Source of the DNA: an uncultured Verrucomicrobia subdivision 3 bacterium | GTDB lineage: Bacteria; Verrucomicrobiota; Verrucomicrobiia; Limisphaerales; UBA11358 | Length of the DNA stretch: 47,002 bases | NCBI GenBank assembly: GCA_903889895.1 | Contig: CAISYZ010000228.1 | Span: 1-47,002 of the forward strand | Direction of reading: 5' to 3' | In this document: positions 1,931 to 28,600 of the stretch, piece after piece | Layout: each line of letters begins with the position of its first letter | Numbering within the stretch: position 1 is the first letter of the stretch | Position numbers and translations under genes: made by a program | The notes under the pieces: generated by a model | What the model saw: the letters and a program-made list of their open reading frames with translations, nothing else | Told to the model about the DNA's origin: nothing | Databases searched by the model: none

Positions 1931-2032
1931 TTACTTCAACTCCGCCACGCTTTCCGCCAGCGCGGTCACCATTTGCCGCAACTGCGTGGCCGTGGTGCAA
2001 TACGGCGGCAGCAGCACCATCACATTGCCCAC
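1931..2032 (-). pseudogene. Duplicated 3' fragment of bioA
   Basis: Bases 1965-2032 are identical over 68 nt to 4035-4102, which encode the end of bioA. The neighbouring 13 nt (1952-1964) differ at two positions. In the bioA frame the fragment encodes 'VGNVMVLLPPYCTTATQLRQ', then a slightly different tail ending 'AESVAELK' and a stop at 1931. The intact gene ends 'AEGVKEL'. Similarity stops abruptly at 2033, in the middle of bioA. This is a scrap left by duplication or replacement, not a functional gene. Confidence 0.85.
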
Positions 2033-2109
2033 ATTGGAAAATGTCGTGAGATTTGAACCCGTCTGAAAAGCTGCGGGTGACAGTTTGAATGTCCGCCTCG
2101 CCCACCGAA

Positions 2110-4003: not shown

Positions 4004-5488
4004 TTATAGTTCCTTCACCCCTTCCGCCAACGCCGTCACCATTTGCCGCAACTGCGTGGCCGTGGTGCAATACGGCGGCAGCAGCACCATCACATTGCCC
4101 ACCGGCCGCGTCAGCACGCCGCGTCGCGCCATCGCCTCGCAGACGCGGATGCCCGCGCGTTCGCGCAGCGCAAACGGCGCACGCGTCCGCCAGTCCTTGA
4201 CCAGTTCCACGCCCGCCACAAGGCCCACCTGCCGGATGTCGCCCACCTGCGGCAGCGCCCAGAGCGTCTGCAATTCGTCGTGCAGTAGCTTTTGCAATTT
4301 CGCCCGCTGCAAAACGGATTGTTTGGTCTGCAAAATATCCAAACTCGCGAGCGCCGCCGCCGCGCCGAGCTGGTTGCCGGTAAAGCTGTGGCCGTGGAAG
4401 AAGGTCTTGAACTCTTCGTATTCGCCCAGGAACGCGTCGAACACGCGCTGCGTGGTCAGCGTGGCCGCCATTGGCAGATAGCCGCCGGTCAACCCTTTCG
4501 CCACGCAGAGAAAGTCCGGCGTCACGCCTTCGTGATGCGAGGCGAACAGCGGTAATTTCGAGTTTCGAATTTCGAATTCCGAATTTGCCACGCCCGTCCG
4601 GCCAAACCCGGTCATTACTTCGTCCGCGATGAGCAGCGCGCCGTGTGCGCGGGCAATTTGCGTGACCTGCGCCAGCCAGCCCGCCGGCTGCGGAATCATC
4701 CCCGCCGCGCCTTGCATCAACGGCTCGAACACGAAGCCGGCGTAGGGATTGCCTTTCTTCTTTTGCGCGGCAAATTTCTTTTCCACGAGGCCGACACATT
4801 CCCATTGGCACTTGCGATAGTTGCGCGCGTCACGGCGTTCCGGCTTGGCCTGATTGAACGGGCAGCGGTAGCAATAGGGCGCCATCACCTTGTCGGTGGC
4901 AAACAACATCCCGCCGTAGGCCTTGTGAAAGAGATCAATGTGGCCCAGCGAGACCGCGCCAATGGTGTCGCCATGATACGCGCCGGAGAGCGAGAGAAAG
5001 CGAGGCTTGGTCTTGGGGCCACGCGTGCGCCGGGTGTATTCGTAGGCGAGCTTGAGCGCGACTTCGAGCGCCGTGGAGCCGTCGTCGGAAAAAAAAACCT
5101 TTTGCAATTTGCAATTTCCAATCGCCAATTTCCAATTTTTCGGACGAGCGTGTGCCTTGCTTAAATTGGCAATTGGCAATTGGCAATTGGCAATCCCCGC
5201 TAATCTTTCCGCGAGCAGGCTGGCGGGTTCATTCGCATAGCCGAGCGCGGAGCTGTGGGCAATCTTCTTCAACTGGCGCGTGATGGCGGCGTTGATCTTC
5301 GGATGTTGATGGCCGTGGAGATTCGTCCAGATGGAAGCATTGGCGTCGAGGTATGCCTTGCCGTGCACATCGCGCAGCACCGCACCTTTGCCCGACGCGA
5401 TGACAATGGGCTCGCGCCGCAGCCAATCGCGCATCTGCGTGAACGGATGCCAAACGAAGCGTTGGTCGAGTTTAGCGAACTTGTTCAT
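4004..5488 (-). CDS. bioA: Adenosylmethionine-8-amino-7-oxononanoate transaminase
   Basis: BioA converts KAPA to DAPA in biotin synthesis, using SAM as amino donor and PLP as cofactor. Family motifs are present: 'WHPFTQM' near the N-terminus, 'SDDGSTALEVALK', 'GAYHGDTIGA', 'IADEVMTGFGRTG', and the PLP lysine in 'CVAKGLTGGYLPMAAT' (about K331). The protein is 494 residues, against roughly 430 for the family. The excess is two in-frame inserts of repeat-derived peptide, at about residues 100-129 ('NCQLPIAN...LAIGNCKLQ') and 301-315 ('NSEFEIRNSKL'). Neither hits a catalytic motif; the first lies just before the SDDGSTA segment. ATG 5488 is preferred over TTG 5494. The gene starts 9 nt after the bioF stop and is co-directional with it. 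Confidence 0.93.
   Translation of the reverse strand: MNKFAKLDQRFVWHPFTQMRDWLRREPIVIASGKGAVLRDVHGKAYLDANASIWTNLHGHQHPKINAAITRQLKKIAHSSALGYANEPASLLAERLAGIANCQLPIANLSKAHARPKNWKLAIGNCKLQKVFFSDDGSTALEVALKLAYEYTRRTRGPKTKPRFLSLSGAYHGDTIGAVSLGHIDLFHKAYGGMLFATDKVMAPYCYRCPFNQAKPERRDARNYRKCQWECVGLVEKKFAAQKKKGNPYAGFVFEPLMQGAAGMIPQPAGWLAQVTQIARAHGALLIADEVMTGFGRTGVANSEFEIRNSKLPLFASHHEGVTPDFLCVAKGLTGGYLPMAATLTTQRVFDAFLGEYEEFKTFFHGHSFTGNQLGAAAALASLDILQTKQSVLQRAKLQKLLHDELQTLWALPQVGDIRQVGLVAGVELVKDWRTRAPFALRERAGIRVCEAMARRGVLTRPVGNVMVLLPPYCTTATQLRQMVTALAEGVKEL
4553..4588. repeat. Degenerate micro-repeat (TTTCGAATTCCGAAT type) inside bioA
   Basis: Tandem, partly palindromic copies of a TTTCGAATT/TTCGAATTCCGAATT unit lie inside bioA and translate in frame as 'NSEFEIRNSKL', a peptide absent from ordinary BioA. 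The length is a multiple of three, so the gene stays open. Confidence 0.75.
5101..5195. repeat. Inverted pair of CCAATTGCCAATT-type micro-repeats inside bioA
   Basis: The left arm (5101-5140) carries TTGCAATTTGCAATTTCC and CCAATTTCCAATTTT units. The right arm (5164-5195) carries four tandem AATTGGC units in the opposite sense. About 24 nt lie between the arms. The unit would fold into a hairpin in RNA. It is translated in frame as about 30 extra residues of BioA. Confidence 0.8.
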
Positions 5489-5520
5489 TTCCAATTTTCA
5501 ATTGCCGATTGCCAATTTAT
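5486..5520. repeat. Micro-repeat forming the bioF/bioA junction
   Basis: Another copy of the CCAATTTTCAATTGCC family. It supplies the last codons of bioF ('KLAIGN', stop at 5498) and the leader and start region of bioA, so stop and start codons appear to have been built from the repeat. Confidence 0.7.
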
Positions 5521-6682
5521 TTAGCGCGGTCACGAGTTCGGCCACATCCGTCGCTGTGTGCGTGGCGCTGAACGTCACGCGCAGCCGCGCTGCGCCGCGC
5601 GCGACGGTGGGATAACGGATGGCAGGAACAAAAATATTTTGTTCGCGCAATTTGGTGGCGGCGACGAGGGTCTTTTCTTCACCGCCAAGAATCAGGGGGA
5701 CGATGGCAGAGAGGATTTCTAATTTGCCATGGCCAATTGCCAATTTGAATTCCGCCACGCGTTGCTGCAGTTGCGAGCGTAGCGATTCGCCGGCAGCGGA
5801 TTGAACCAGTTTGATGCCGGCGGTCGCGGCAGCGGCGGCGGCGGGAACGGGCGCGGTGGAGAAAATAAAACTGCGGGCGCGGTTGACGAGATAATCAATC
5901 AACGCCTGACTGCCGGCGATATAGCCGCCGCTCGCCCCGAGCGCCTTGCCGAGCGTGCCCATCTGGATTTCAATTTGTCCGCTGACGCCGAACGCGTCGG
6001 CGAGGCCGCGTCCATGTTTGCCGAGAATGCCGGTGGCGTGCGCCTCATCCACCATCAGCCACGCGCCGTATTTTTCCTTGAGCGCCACGATCTCCCGCAG
6101 CGGCGCAGCGTCGCCGTCCATGGAGAAAATAGATTCGGTGATGACGAGGACTTCCGCTTTCCGCCTTCCGCCTTCCGCTTTGGCTGCCCATTTCAACTTA
6201 TCTTCCAAATCAGCGAGATCGTTGTGGACAAAGACGCGCAGCTTGGCGCCGGATAATTTGGCGGCGTCCACGATGCAGGCGTGGACGAGTTTGTCCAAAA
6301 TAATGATGTCATCCTTGCCGCATACCGCTGTGATGGTGCCGACGGCGGCGGCGTAGCCGGTGGCAAAAGTCAGCGCGGCCTCGGTTTGCTTGAACGCGGC
6401 AAGCGTTTCTTCAAGTTCATGAAATGGTGCCAACGAACCGCAGATGAGCCGCGACGCACCGGCACCGGCACCGAATTTCTCCACGGCTCTGACGGCGGCT
6501 TCCTTAAGCTCGGGATGATGGGCGAGACCGAGATAATCGTTGGCCGAAAAATTGAGAAAAGTTTTGTTGCCGATGGCGATGCGCGTGCCCTGGGCGGAAT
6601 CCACGCGGCGCAGTTCGCGGAACAGATTCTGTTCGCGCAAGGTGGCGAGGCGGCGGCTCAATTCGTCAGCAAACGAATTCAT
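5498..6682 (-). CDS. bioF: 8-amino-7-oxononanoate synthase
   Basis: BioF is a PLP enzyme that condenses pimeloyl-thioester with L-alanine to give KAPA, the step before BioA. Seen in the sequence: 'FSANDYLGLAHHPELKEAA', 'GSGASRL'-like 'GAGAGASRLICGS', 'DEAHATGILGKHGRG', and the PLP lysine in 'GTLGKALGASGGY' (about K246). ATG 6682 ('MNSFADELSRRL') is chosen. An upstream in-frame extension (to 6700) only translates a CACAGATG-type micro-repeat. In-frame repeat-derived peptides occur at about residues 169-177 ('AEGGRRKAE'), 310-324 ('LAIGHGKLEIL') and the last six residues. bioA follows on the same strand; bioB, bioD and bioC are not in the window. Confidence 0.93.
   Translation of the reverse strand: MNSFADELSRRLATLREQNLFRELRRVDSAQGTRIAIGNKTFLNFSANDYLGLAHHPELKEAAVRAVEKFGAGAGASRLICGSLAPFHELEETLAAFKQTEAALTFATGYAAAVGTITAVCGKDDIIILDKLVHACIVDAAKLSGAKLRVFVHNDLADLEDKLKWAAKAEGGRRKAEVLVITESIFSMDGDAAPLREIVALKEKYGAWLMVDEAHATGILGKHGRGLADAFGVSGQIEIQMGTLGKALGASGGYIAGSQALIDYLVNRARSFIFSTAPVPAAAAAATAGIKLVQSAAGESLRSQLQQRVAEFKLAIGHGKLEILSAIVPLILGGEEKTLVAATKLREQNIFVPAIRYPTVARGAARLRVTFSATHTATDVAELVTALNKLAIGN
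5716..5752. repeat. CCAATTGCCAATT-type micro-repeat inside bioF
   Basis: A short degenerate copy of the family seen in bioA, read in frame by bioF as 'FKLAIGHGKLEIL'. BioF proteins vary in this region, so whether it is an insertion or a replacement is unclear. Confidence 0.6.
6152..6180. repeat. TTCCGCCTTCCGC-type micro-repeat inside bioF
   Basis: Four tandem TTCCGC(C/T)T units read in frame by bioF as 'AEGGRRKAE', just before 'VLVITESIFSMDGD'. The unit differs from the AATTGGC and TTCGAATT families. Confidence 0.65.
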
Positions 6683-6684
6683 TG

Positions 6685-6717
6685 AGCCACAGGTAAACAC
6701 AGATGCACACGGATGGA
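6685..6717. repeat. CACAGATG-type micro-repeat upstream of bioF
   Basis: GCCACAGG..AACACAGATGCACACGG, a degenerate tandem of ACACAGATG units, lies between the amidohydrolase stop and the bioF start. It is a fourth unit type among the repeats here. Confidence 0.55.
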
Positions 6718-25645: not shown

Positions 25646-28600
25646 AAAAAATTGTCGTCCTAATATTATTTGCGGTTTGGTCGGCGGATGCCGCGCCGAA
25701 GGTTTTGCCCGTCATCTCCGTTGGTGGAGGAGGTCGAATAAAATACGAACTGGATGAACTAGGCAACCGGGTCCCGGATTTTTCAACGTGTGGTTATGCT
25801 GGCGGCGACCGGGAAATTCCCTCCGCGCAGGTTCGAGTTGTGGTGACGCCGGTTGAGGGCGACGAAACTGCACGCATCCAGCAGGCAATCGATTATGTCG
25901 CCAGTTTGCCGCCGGATACCAACGGCGTGCGCGGTGCAGTTTTGCTGTTGGCCGGGCGTCATGAAATTTCTGGCTGCTTGAGTATTTCCAATTCAGGTGT
26001 GGTTCTCCGCGGGCAGGGCATGGGCGAGGGCGGAACAACTTTGTTTGCGGCTGGCTTGGATCGCCGCACCGCCATTCGTTTTGTTGGAGCTAAAAATTTC
26101 CCCTCAACTAACCCTTTCGTTCAAATTATTGACGGCTATGTTCCGGTTGGTGCGAAAAGTTTTCACCTTGTTACCATGAATGGTCTCAAAATCGGCAACA
26201 CTATTCGCATCGTCCGTCCCAGCACGAAAGAGTGGATTGAAAAGCTTGGCGCGAAGGACTTCGGTGGCGGCGAGGGCGGCGGGTGGCGGCCCGGCGGTCA
26301 GGACATAGTTTGGGATCGGAAAATCGTCACGCTTGAAAGTAATTTGGTTACTGTGGATGCGCCAATTACCTCGGCCCTTGAAACTGAGTTTGGCGGCGGG
26401 CACGTGGTGATTTTTTCGTGTTCTGACCGAATCAATAATGTAGGAGTTGAAAATCTCTCGCTCGAATCAGCTTCCGACTCCGCTAATCCCAAGGATGAGA
26501 ATCATGCTTGGTGTGCCATTACCATGGAAAGAACCGCCGACGCTTGGGTGCGACAGGTTTCGTTCAGGCACTTTGCCGGTTCGGCGGTCGCCCTCTATGA
26601 AACCTGCCAGCGCGTGACGGTGGAAGATTGCTTATCACTCGCTCCGGTTTCCGAGGACGGTGGCTATCGGCGAAATACGTTTTTCACGATGGGACAGCAA
26701 ACATTGTTCCTCCGTTGTTTCTCAGAAAATGGAAGACACGATTTTTCCACCGGCCATTGTGCTGCCGGGCCGAATGCTTTTGTCCAATGTGAAACCAGCG
26801 GCTCGCTGGCCGACAGCGGCGCGATAGAAAGCTGGTCCTCCGGCACGCTCTTCGACAATGTGCGGATTGATGGCAATGCGATTTCGCTCGGCTATCGTGC
26901 GGGCAACAATGCCGGCATCGGCTGGGCGGCGGCAAACTCGGTGCTGTGGAATTGCTGCGCGTCGATCATCCGCTGCTGGAATCCTCCCGGCGCGCATAAT
27001 TGGAGCTTCGGTTCGTGGGCTGGCTTCGAGGGCGACGGTATCTGGCGCGACTCAAACAGCTATAAAAAGCCCGAGTCGCTCTATGCCGCGCAACTAACCG
27101 AGCGCACGGGACGCCGCGTGGAAATCATGTCGCGCGTCACCAAGGAGGCCAGCAACCCGACCGTTGAAGAAGCGGCGGGACTTATCGCCGCCTCCCGCAA
27201 ACCAGCACCGCAGTTGCGTGATTTTATTGGAAACGCTTCAAAACGGAATCCGATTCCAATTGAATCCGGCAGCGCCAAACGAATTGAAGACATTGCTGGC
27301 ATGGCTCAAGCCTCACCCATCACCCATCACGAAATCTCCATCACCAACGGCTGGCTTGTTTGCGATGGCCGGCTTCTTCTCGGCGGCGTTCAGGAACTGA
27401 CTTGGTGGCGTGGCAGTCTTCACCCGGACGAGGCGGCGTCGTTTGGTCCAGCGCTTACACGATATGTGCCCGGTCGCGCCGGAGCGGGTTTTACGGATGA
27501 TCCCAGCGAACTGGCTGACACGATGGCGCAGCGAGGCGCCGTGGCGCTCGATCATCATTATGGACTTTGGTATGACATCCGCCGCGACGATCACGAGCGT
27601 GTTCGCCGCATGGACGGCGATGTGCTTCCGCCGTTCTTCGAGCAGCCGTTCGCGCGGAGCGGGCAGGGGACGGCTTGGGACGGCTTGAGCAAATACGACC
27701 TGACGAAATTTAATCCGTGGTATTGGTCACGTCTGAAAAGTTTCGCGGATTTGGCGGATGAACGCGGTTTGGTTTTGTTCAATGAAAATTATTTTCAGCA
27801 CAACATTATCGAGGCTGGCGCGCATTGGGTAGATTGCCCGTGGCGTCCGGCGAACAATGTCAATGGCAGCGGATTTCCTGAGCCGCCGCCGTTTGCCGGC
27901 GACAAGCGTATTTTCATGGCGGAGCAGTTTTATGACGAGACAAATCCCGTCCGTCGCGCGCTGCACGTAAAATACATCCGCCAGAACCTCGACAACTTCA
28001 CGAACAACGCGAACGTTGTTCAGTTCACTAGCGCGGAATTCAGCGGGCCAGCGCATTTCGTCGGCTTCTGGCTGGATACAGTTGGCGACTGGAAGCGGGA
28101 GCACAAAGGCAACCGCGCCGTCATCGCACTGGCTGCGCCAAAAAATGTGCAAGATGAAATACTTGCCGACGCAAAGCGCGCTGCAATCGTGGATGTGATT
28201 GCATTCCGCTATTGGTTTGAGACGGACGGGGAAATATATGCGCCAGACGGCGGGTTGAATTTGGCGCCGCGCCAGTGGCAGCGATTATTGGGCAATGTTA
28301 CACCCAATGATTTGAATCTTGCCGCAATGGCTGCCGAGTATCGTGGAAAATTCCCGGCTAAACCGGTAATTGCAGCGAGCGAGCAGGGTCTAAACCTCGG
28401 CCGCAGTGGCTGGGCCTATGTATGCGCAGGCGGCTCAATGCCAAACCTGCCGAAAACCACGGACGCTAATTTGCTCGCCGCGATTCCGCAAATGCATCCG
28501 TGGCGCGCGGACAATACAAAGAAAATCTGGGCGCTACGCGACGCGGGAAGACAAATGCTGATTTTTAATGCTGGCGATTTTGATTTGTCTGGTGAATCAG

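Follow-up and report, generated by a model that had tools for sequence, protein, structure and literature searches.

Tandem 7-nt units are known from heptameric simple sequence repeats (SSRs) such as the short tandemly repeated repetitive (STRR) sequences of cyanobacteria, the GGGAATC repeats of Xanthomonas and the TAACTGA repeats of Beggiatoaceae, and STRR heptamers occur inside cyanobacterial RNase P RNA. Another class of element, the intervening sequence (IVS) of 23S rRNA genes in Leptospira and Coxiella, carries an open reading frame (ORF) for an S23 protein (PF05635) between complementary termini. Here we analyse a stretch of 47,002 nucleotides, the window (contig C228, CAISYZ010000228.1), from an uncultured Verrucomicrobia subdivision 3 bacterium, in which six tandem 7-nt arrays lie in and between the biotin genes bioA and bioF. 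These arrays are very probably the arms of S23 hairpin elements of the 23S rRNA IVS type, or remnants of such elements that lack the ORF.

A Coxiella IVS with a terminal stem is described in which GACAGAT heptamers stand beside the S23 ORF (PMC4990558). Heptamers are reported as the commonest class among the long simple repeats of most genomes, together with the idea of a polymerase footprint (PMC4679880), and the same article summarises a proposal by Mrazek in 2007 that heptamer SSRs arise by slippage (PMC4679880). The Xanthomonas GGGAATC repeats often stand as convergent pairs, 70 in Xcc and 75 in Xac, and were generally found to be unconnected with insertion sequences or transposable elements (PMC4692102). 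The terms S23 and intervening sequence are absent from the Xanthomonas, Beggiatoaceae and Thiomargarita heptamer papers that were searched. Among the papers listed in literature searches, judged by title and abstract opening and with most subscription papers outside the scope, none joins S23/IVS proteins to heptamers except the Coxiella paper on one IVS.

Like heptamer SSRs, the repeats described here are tandem 7-nt units, and, as in the STRR class, such tandems are over-represented relative to other periods; arms of this kind are carried by S23 genes of cyanobacterial plasmids, and GGGAATC-type arms flank an S23 gene in one of our loci (L323). The elements here share with the 23S rRNA IVS an S23 ORF between complementary termini, but they are found within operons and protein genes, occur in several copies per genome and have ORF-less derivatives that are translated in frame. 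Repetitive extragenic palindromic (REP) sequences and REPINs, with their REP-associated tyrosine transposases (RAYTs), are likewise short hairpins that are not autonomous and have a cognate parent coding for a protein. Their partner, however, is a Y1 transposase and not a four-helix-bundle protein, and they are not known to have 7-nt tandem arms; the window arrays are 7-nt tandems and not the fixed 20-40 nt palindromes with a GTAG or CGTC tag that mark REPs. Rickettsia palindromic elements, to which the initial annotation likened the repeats, are palindromic repeats that stay in frame within conserved genes; they form fixed sequence families that are not known to have tandem 7-mers or an S23 partner, and the likeness is one of behaviour and nothing further.

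Heptamer arrays of the window and the arms of S23 elements

The six arrays span positions 4553-6184 and belong to three families, AATTGGC (four arrays, of which two are inverted against each other), AATTCGA (one) and AAAGCGG/AAGGCGG (one). They are named A1 (two arms) and A2 in bioA, F1 and F2 in bioF, and the junction array. A1 is palindromic and in frame, and the others are solo arrays. Four strict runs at lag 7 were detected in the window (4554-4586, 5101-5129, 5161-5198 and 6149-6182), all within the biotin stretch, and none at lags 4-6, 8 or 9; 50 first-order shuffles of the window gave 0.0 runs at lags 6-9. A looser periodicity test added a run at 5487-5517 and one weak run at 27303-27331. 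Since only one lag-7 array turned up in 222 kb sampled from elsewhere in the genome, the biotin genes are exceptionally array-rich.

These runs and shuffles bear out the repeats that the initial annotation had placed here, and the in-frame peptides NSEFEIRNSKL and LAIGNCKL are translated as it described. Three of its four unit types stand as heptamer families, whereas the fourth, CACAGATG, amounts to merely 1.9 copies of a 10-nt unit (6697-6715, TRF score 31) and stays unexplained. The common 7-nt period, the inverted pairing and the link to S23 and the IVS had escaped it.

The genome itself (4.14 Mb, 260 contigs, 75.7% complete) has three PF05635 matches, on contigs C48, C131 and C236. The C48 gene, flanked by genes for an ABC ATPase and an FtsX-type protein (both identified by eye), has AATTGGC arms, and the C131 gene has AATTCGA arms; inverted termini surround the S23 ORF at both. 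The C236 gene has no clear heptamer arm and did not pass a period-7 filter. When the window arrays were scored against 102 S23 elements, their top scores were 22.5-31 against medians of 7-8, and 300 random 43-mers of the window reached at most 13 against the three elements of the same genome.

The matches are specific. A2 is best matched by the C131 arm (27/30; 22.5, with 12.5 for the next best of the 102 elements), and the left arm of A1 by the C48 arm (35/40; 27.5). For the right arm of A1 the first match is L333, a clade-mate of C48 in genome G048 (25.5), with C48 second (24.5). The junction array scores 31.0 with L333, specifically with the right arm of AATTGGC-clade elements, and C48 is again second (24.5); it also has the outer GGAAAT of these right arms and, like C48 and L333, carries TAAATAAATTGGC, which contains the S23 stop codon. 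F2 is closest to C48 (27) and shares ATTGGCCATGGCAAATT with its right arm (30/32). The next unrelated elements score 10.5-12.5 for the AATTGGC arrays, and C131 scores 12.5-15 for the A1 arms. For F1 the top matches are three AAAGCGG-armed S23 elements of the sister genomes G013, G047 and G048 (26.5-27), followed by a fourth element of that clade (17.5) and then by 15. Thus five window arrays match the clades of two elements of the same genome and one matches a sister-genome clade. No S23 ORF lies between the window arrays; they are interpreted as arm-only derivatives.

Letters that depart from the unit are shared as well. A 24-mer that differs by one base from the C48 right arm and includes its off-unit CCATGG has just five sites in the genome (at most 3 mismatches): both C48 arms, F2 in bioF, and contigs C199 and C213. 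Across 20 genomes, an exact unit common to an array and an S23 arm of the same genome was found for 7 of 105 arrays, against a permuted mean of 0.67 (0 of 300 permutations).

S23 genes between inverted arms

The first link to S23 was a pair of arrays in the related genome G021 that flank, in inverted orientation, a gene of PF05635 (S23, or 23S rRNA intervening-sequence protein). At E <= 0.001 this family was detected in 45 of the 49 genus genomes, mostly incomplete, fragmented assemblies, with at most 14 matches per genome, and 14 control genomes had none; at E <= 1, two control genomes had sub-threshold matches. In a sample of the phylum, 100 of 145 genomes had a match.

To score arms, 250 nt on each side of the S23 domain were aligned for an inverted match, a score of at least 14 counting as an arm. 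Arms were present at 40 of 53 genus loci, at 19 of 29 from other families and at 3 of 458 control placements, which came from verrucomicrobial loci only (bioA, ribD, hemL) and none from plasmids. At a score of at least 16 the corresponding numbers were 32, 14 and 0, and these arms had a mean self-match at lag 7 of 0.74 (genus) and 0.66 (others), compared with 0.21-0.37 at other lags. In an extended set the S23 gene lay between inverted arms at 54 of 71 loci of the genus, at 19 of 30 further verrucomicrobial loci and at all 12 plasmid loci (ten from cyanobacteria, one from Gemmatimonadota and one from Azospirillum, of the Alphaproteobacteria). The plasmid loci were taken from 36 matching records, chosen mainly for organism spread and match length with Riemerella records left out; L299 and L263 were excluded from the first set and L263 from the extended one. 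Inverted periodic arms therefore surround most of the S23 genes examined, in four phyla. The best lag of the scored arms was 7 in 72 of 85 cases, 8 in nine, and other or unscored in four. Units of 8 nt were measured at the plasmid loci L354, L359 and L361, and four other-family verrucomicrobial loci with best lag 8 (L314, L315, L320 and L322) were named by eye from their arms.

Arm unit and S23 clade covary (Mantel r 0.355, reached in 0 of 2000 permutations) over 75 of 105 S23 loci, the other 30 being excluded for want of clear period-7 arms or an ORF. A unit within one base was shared by 83% of 23 pairs with S23 identity of at least 80%, by 53% of 78 pairs at 60-80% and by 1-3% of pairs below 45%. 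A single-seed search for S23 ORFs overlooked five of them, four of which were recovered by a second query. On cyanobacterial plasmids S23 genes also lie inside operons (L355, L358, L361 and L353), twice as cas6/S23/cas4, once as cas10/S23/cmr3 and once between two ribonucleotide reductase genes.

A complete element and its deletion derivatives were found at one loop of one enzyme family. In a DNA-methyltransferase gene (L323/P0242), a complete S23 gene with GGGAATC-type arms lies between NIRLMDAVL and EPEWPTVDFIIGNPPF. Like our other protein searches, the search for homologues used the best 120 of several thousand ranked by score, which biases it toward proteins with similar inserts; 82 of the 120 had both anchors, and in 49 of these 82 the loop has no insert and is 12-13 residues long. 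In P0243 and P0245 the left arm is followed by HDAQQVDTGAQGQGL and then by the right arm, all in frame, and P0246 is built in the same way with only the start of the right arm kept. The middle peptide of all three corresponds to the 3' end of the S23 gene in another reading frame: in L323, RHDAQQVDTGAQGQG is encoded by nucleotides 1800-1844 in frame 2, and the S23 protein ends with IQALKAKV at 1822-1845 in frame 0. This retained 3'-end sequence shows that internal deletion of S23 elements does give rise to ORF-less in-frame inserts. In P0253, P0266, P0267, P0313 and others, this loop is occupied by different recurrent peptides (SAGVPPA... and TGVPPV...HGQDAHAT), apparently further repeat families translated in frame. 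A candidate trace of the S23 C-terminal sequence (KTAR motif) in A1 loops was set aside, as it rests on one S23 copy (L330).

These data bear on whether heptamer hairpins are instead a separate repeat class, into which S23 genes inserted as passengers after the hairpins had formed. Arrays do outnumber S23 genes in G021 (37 in 400 kb, against 14 S23 matches in the whole 3.4 Mb), and S23 is found in many contexts, both of which fit that account. We nevertheless consider it unlikely, because the unit covaries with the S23 clade, because the methyltransferase remnants hold S23 3'-end sequence, so that the S23 form came first there, and because the junction array of the window retains the S23 stop boundary. 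The ABC/FtsX locus argues in the same direction. At the corresponding junction of G021, whose ABC ATPase is 49% identical to that of our genome and whose FtsX was identified by Pfam, the S23 protein is 48% identical to that of C48, and the arms are AAGGATG; the arms thus differ at this locus rather than staying constant.

Translated repeats in enzyme loops

The coordinates of the arrays and of the two biotin genes are given in Table 1. Among the matches listed, the nearest named relatives by bioF are metagenome-assembled genomes of Limisphaerales / Verrucomicrobia subdivision 3. A duplicated 3' end of bioA, 88% identical to BioA residues 461-494, lies about 2 kb from the gene on the minus strand of the window (1937-2038).

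Table 1 Heptamer arrays and biotin genes of the window
Feature	Position	Strand	Description
bioA (7,8-diaminopelargonate aminotransferase)	4004..5488	-	494 residues, frame intact
site A2	4553..4588		AATTCGA array in bioA; peptide VANSEFEIRNSKL
site A1, first arm	5097..5138		unit AATTGGC/GCCAATT, in bioA
site A1, inverted arm	5160..5199		unit AATTGGC, in bioA
junction array	5486..5522		AATTGGC, between bioF stop and bioA start
bioF (8-amino-7-oxononanoate synthase)	5498..6682	-	394 residues, frame intact
site F2	5712..5755		AATTGGC array in bioF
site F1	6148..6184		AAAGCGG/AAGGCGG array in bioF; peptide KAEGGRRKAE
weak CACAGATG stretch	6685..6717		directly upstream of bioF start codon

Loop placement of the tracts was derived from alignment to solved structures, since an AlphaFold model of BioA (44 sequences) was useless (mean pLDDT, the predicted local distance difference test, 39.6). 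Against 3DOD, A1 with both arms is a 24-residue insertion in BioA and A2 a 13-residue insertion; against 5VNX, the F1 tract of BioF is about 7 residues longer, and the F2 tract is 3 residues shorter and hence no insertion. The initial annotation had treated all of these peptides as insertions, which holds for A1, A2 and F1 but fails for F2. The junction array encodes the C-terminus of BioF and adjoins the bioA start. The A1 arms could form a hairpin (5101-5138 inverted against 5164-5194; -35.8 kcal/mol, z -3.1 over 60 shuffles), but z was below -3 in only 14 of 33 species, and a stable hairpin at A1 is thus not universal.

The suggestion of a proliferating repeat system tolerated as in-frame peptides has held up. 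AATTGGC-type arrays are spread over 15 contigs of the same genome and both strands, with 49 matches when at most 2 of 18 nt may differ and when overlapping 7-nt steps and the two strands are each counted on their own; a backward-pattern control gave 0 matches in that genome. In relatives, different peptides stand at the same BioA and BioF sites. Sixty named loci carrying bioF contained 68 lag-7 arrays, 64 of them inside bioA/bioF or no more than 40 nt away (132.6 kb), and four in the other 257.7 kb; other lags from 4 to 13 gave totals of 0-14 in the same loci (14 at lag 6, all in bioF, and 13 at lag 12). Removal of 16 duplicates from 90 bioF/bioA loci left 74 unique ones, the window included. 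In these, arrays were present in 19 of 64 readable cases at F1, 21 of 51 at F2, 18 of 56 at A1 and 11 of 54 at A2, with 13, 15, 14 and 10 distinct units, respectively. Lags other than 7 gave 0-2 runs per in-gene site (one lag-12 run at A2), and lag-6 runs lay elsewhere.

Arrays are not confined to the biotin genes. Thirty copies of ribD held 24 arrays, with at least one in 16 copies, and hemL, a fold-matched control to BioA, had three in 30 copies, compared with 21 in 30 for bioA in the same test. The 37 arrays in 400 kb of G021 compare with 0-9 at the other lags from 4 to 13; many of the array-bearing frames belong, by Pfam, to conserved genes, for MqnC/CofH, AddA- and AddB-type proteins, a DinG-type helicase, RibD, a TrpD-type transferase and UbiD. 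Other relatives had 0-8 arrays per 84-100 kb. The bioF frame of L086 continues, from about 4.2 kb, into an apparent Y1/RAYT transposase-like sequence, presumably so by its motif.

Turnover at these sites can be fast. In L074 and L076 the BioA core is 98% identical, yet unrelated palindromic inserts occupy the exact same A2 position, so A2 exchanges inserts rapidly. Gradual in-place drift of one ancestral array was rejected because these sister species swap whole inserts. GTAG-type palindromes occupy A1, A2 and F2 in some relatives (by eye). Together with the L074/L076 swap, the presence of other repeats in the same loops identifies the loops as permissive sites, at which a fixed position need not mean a single ancestral insert.

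Ordinary SSRs generated by in-place 7-nt polymerase slippage would explain the dominance of period 7, the 14-nt alternation of some arrays (L056 and L057), which looks like two-unit slippage, and the behaviour of F2, which is exactly 25 residues long in 20 of its 21 array species (32 of 51 species overall) and keeps a common register across relatives (by eye). This origin is quite improbable, since slippage makes neither inverted pairs nor S23 genes between them, and gives no copies with the off-unit letters of one S23 arm. Slippage may have homogenised units afterwards, and some in-place turnover at F2 is possible, given the constant length and common register.

An origin as REPs or miniature inverted-repeat transposable elements moved by RAYTs, which the initial annotation had raised, is extremely improbable: Y1 transposases are present in 44 of 49 genomes (five matches in our genome), GTAG-type palindromes share the loops, and S23 and Y1 numbers correlate (rho 0.56, 49 genomes), but the abundance of AATCCGC, the one heptamer counted in these 49 genomes, follows S23 number (rho 0.48, p 0.0006; uncorrected for kinship and completeness) and not Y1 number (rho 0.16, p 0.27), and the arrays share neither a tag nor a fixed palindrome, their unit varying freely while the period is constant.

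A proposed S23 element and its implications

On the S23-element reading, a full element consists of an arm of tandem units of 7 nt, sometimes 8 nt, followed by a gene for an S23/PF05635 four-helix bundle and by the inverted arm, about 450-550 bp in all. Internal deletion would leave a mini-hairpin, as at A1, or a solo arm, as at A2, F1, F2 and the junction. Insertions in host genes would persist only at a tolerant loop or linker with the frame kept open, which would explain why the same BioA, BioF and RibD sites are repeatedly occupied by elements of different clades.

The elements are presumably mobile. PF05635 (2GSC) and Avd (4DWL) are reported to be homologous, and Avd is described as the reverse transcriptase partner in diversity-generating retroelements (PMC10053308). 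This homology makes it plausible that S23 would bind its own hairpin RNA and promote insertion through cDNA; being Avd-like, S23 may help to copy the elements, a process that might involve reverse transcription of the hairpin RNA. The 7-nt period may reflect the binding or copying register of the copying machinery.

Several observations weigh against an S23 origin of the arrays. We observed no within-species insertion event. F1 has no match among the three S23 elements of its own genome, the assembly of which is 75.7% complete. When one mismatched base is allowed, the unit sharing between arrays and S23 arms of the same genome is weak (17 of 105 against 8.2 expected, reached in 14 of 300 permutations), so most arrays are without a matching parent among the S23 loci taken in. 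No arm was scored at 17 of 71 genus loci and at 11 of the 30 further verrucomicrobial loci. Inheritance of S23 copies at fixed loci is common, as in L347-L351, which share the same downstream gene (by eye hisC-like); because such loci look orthologous, the covariation of clade and unit could be explained, perhaps in part, by plain co-inheritance of arm and ORF. The length-neutral turnover of units at F2 is unexplained by a simple insertion model.

More tentatively, and with rather less confidence than we place in the reading of the window itself, S23 and its cognate 7- or 8-nt arms might constitute a pan-bacterial class of hairpin retroelements. An Avd-like protein would recognise its own arm unit and promote RNA-templated copying into hairpins and loops; the cyanobacterial, Xanthomonas and Beggiatoaceae heptamers and the 23S IVS would be footprints of the class, and remnants would routinely be translated as loops of core enzymes.

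Our findings join two old puzzles, the abundance of 7-nt units among the long simple repeats of bacteria and the origin of the 23S rRNA IVS that encode S23. Should arms and S23 be a single element, the two questions could be put to the test, as each S23 clade predicts its repeat unit. For genome annotation our findings carry a warning that peptides such as NSEFEIRNSKL are element remnants. For the host, they show how the loops of metabolic and DNA-repair enzymes can vary naturally without loss of frame, with RibD and the AddA-/AddB-type, UbiD and TrpD-type proteins of G021 as examples.

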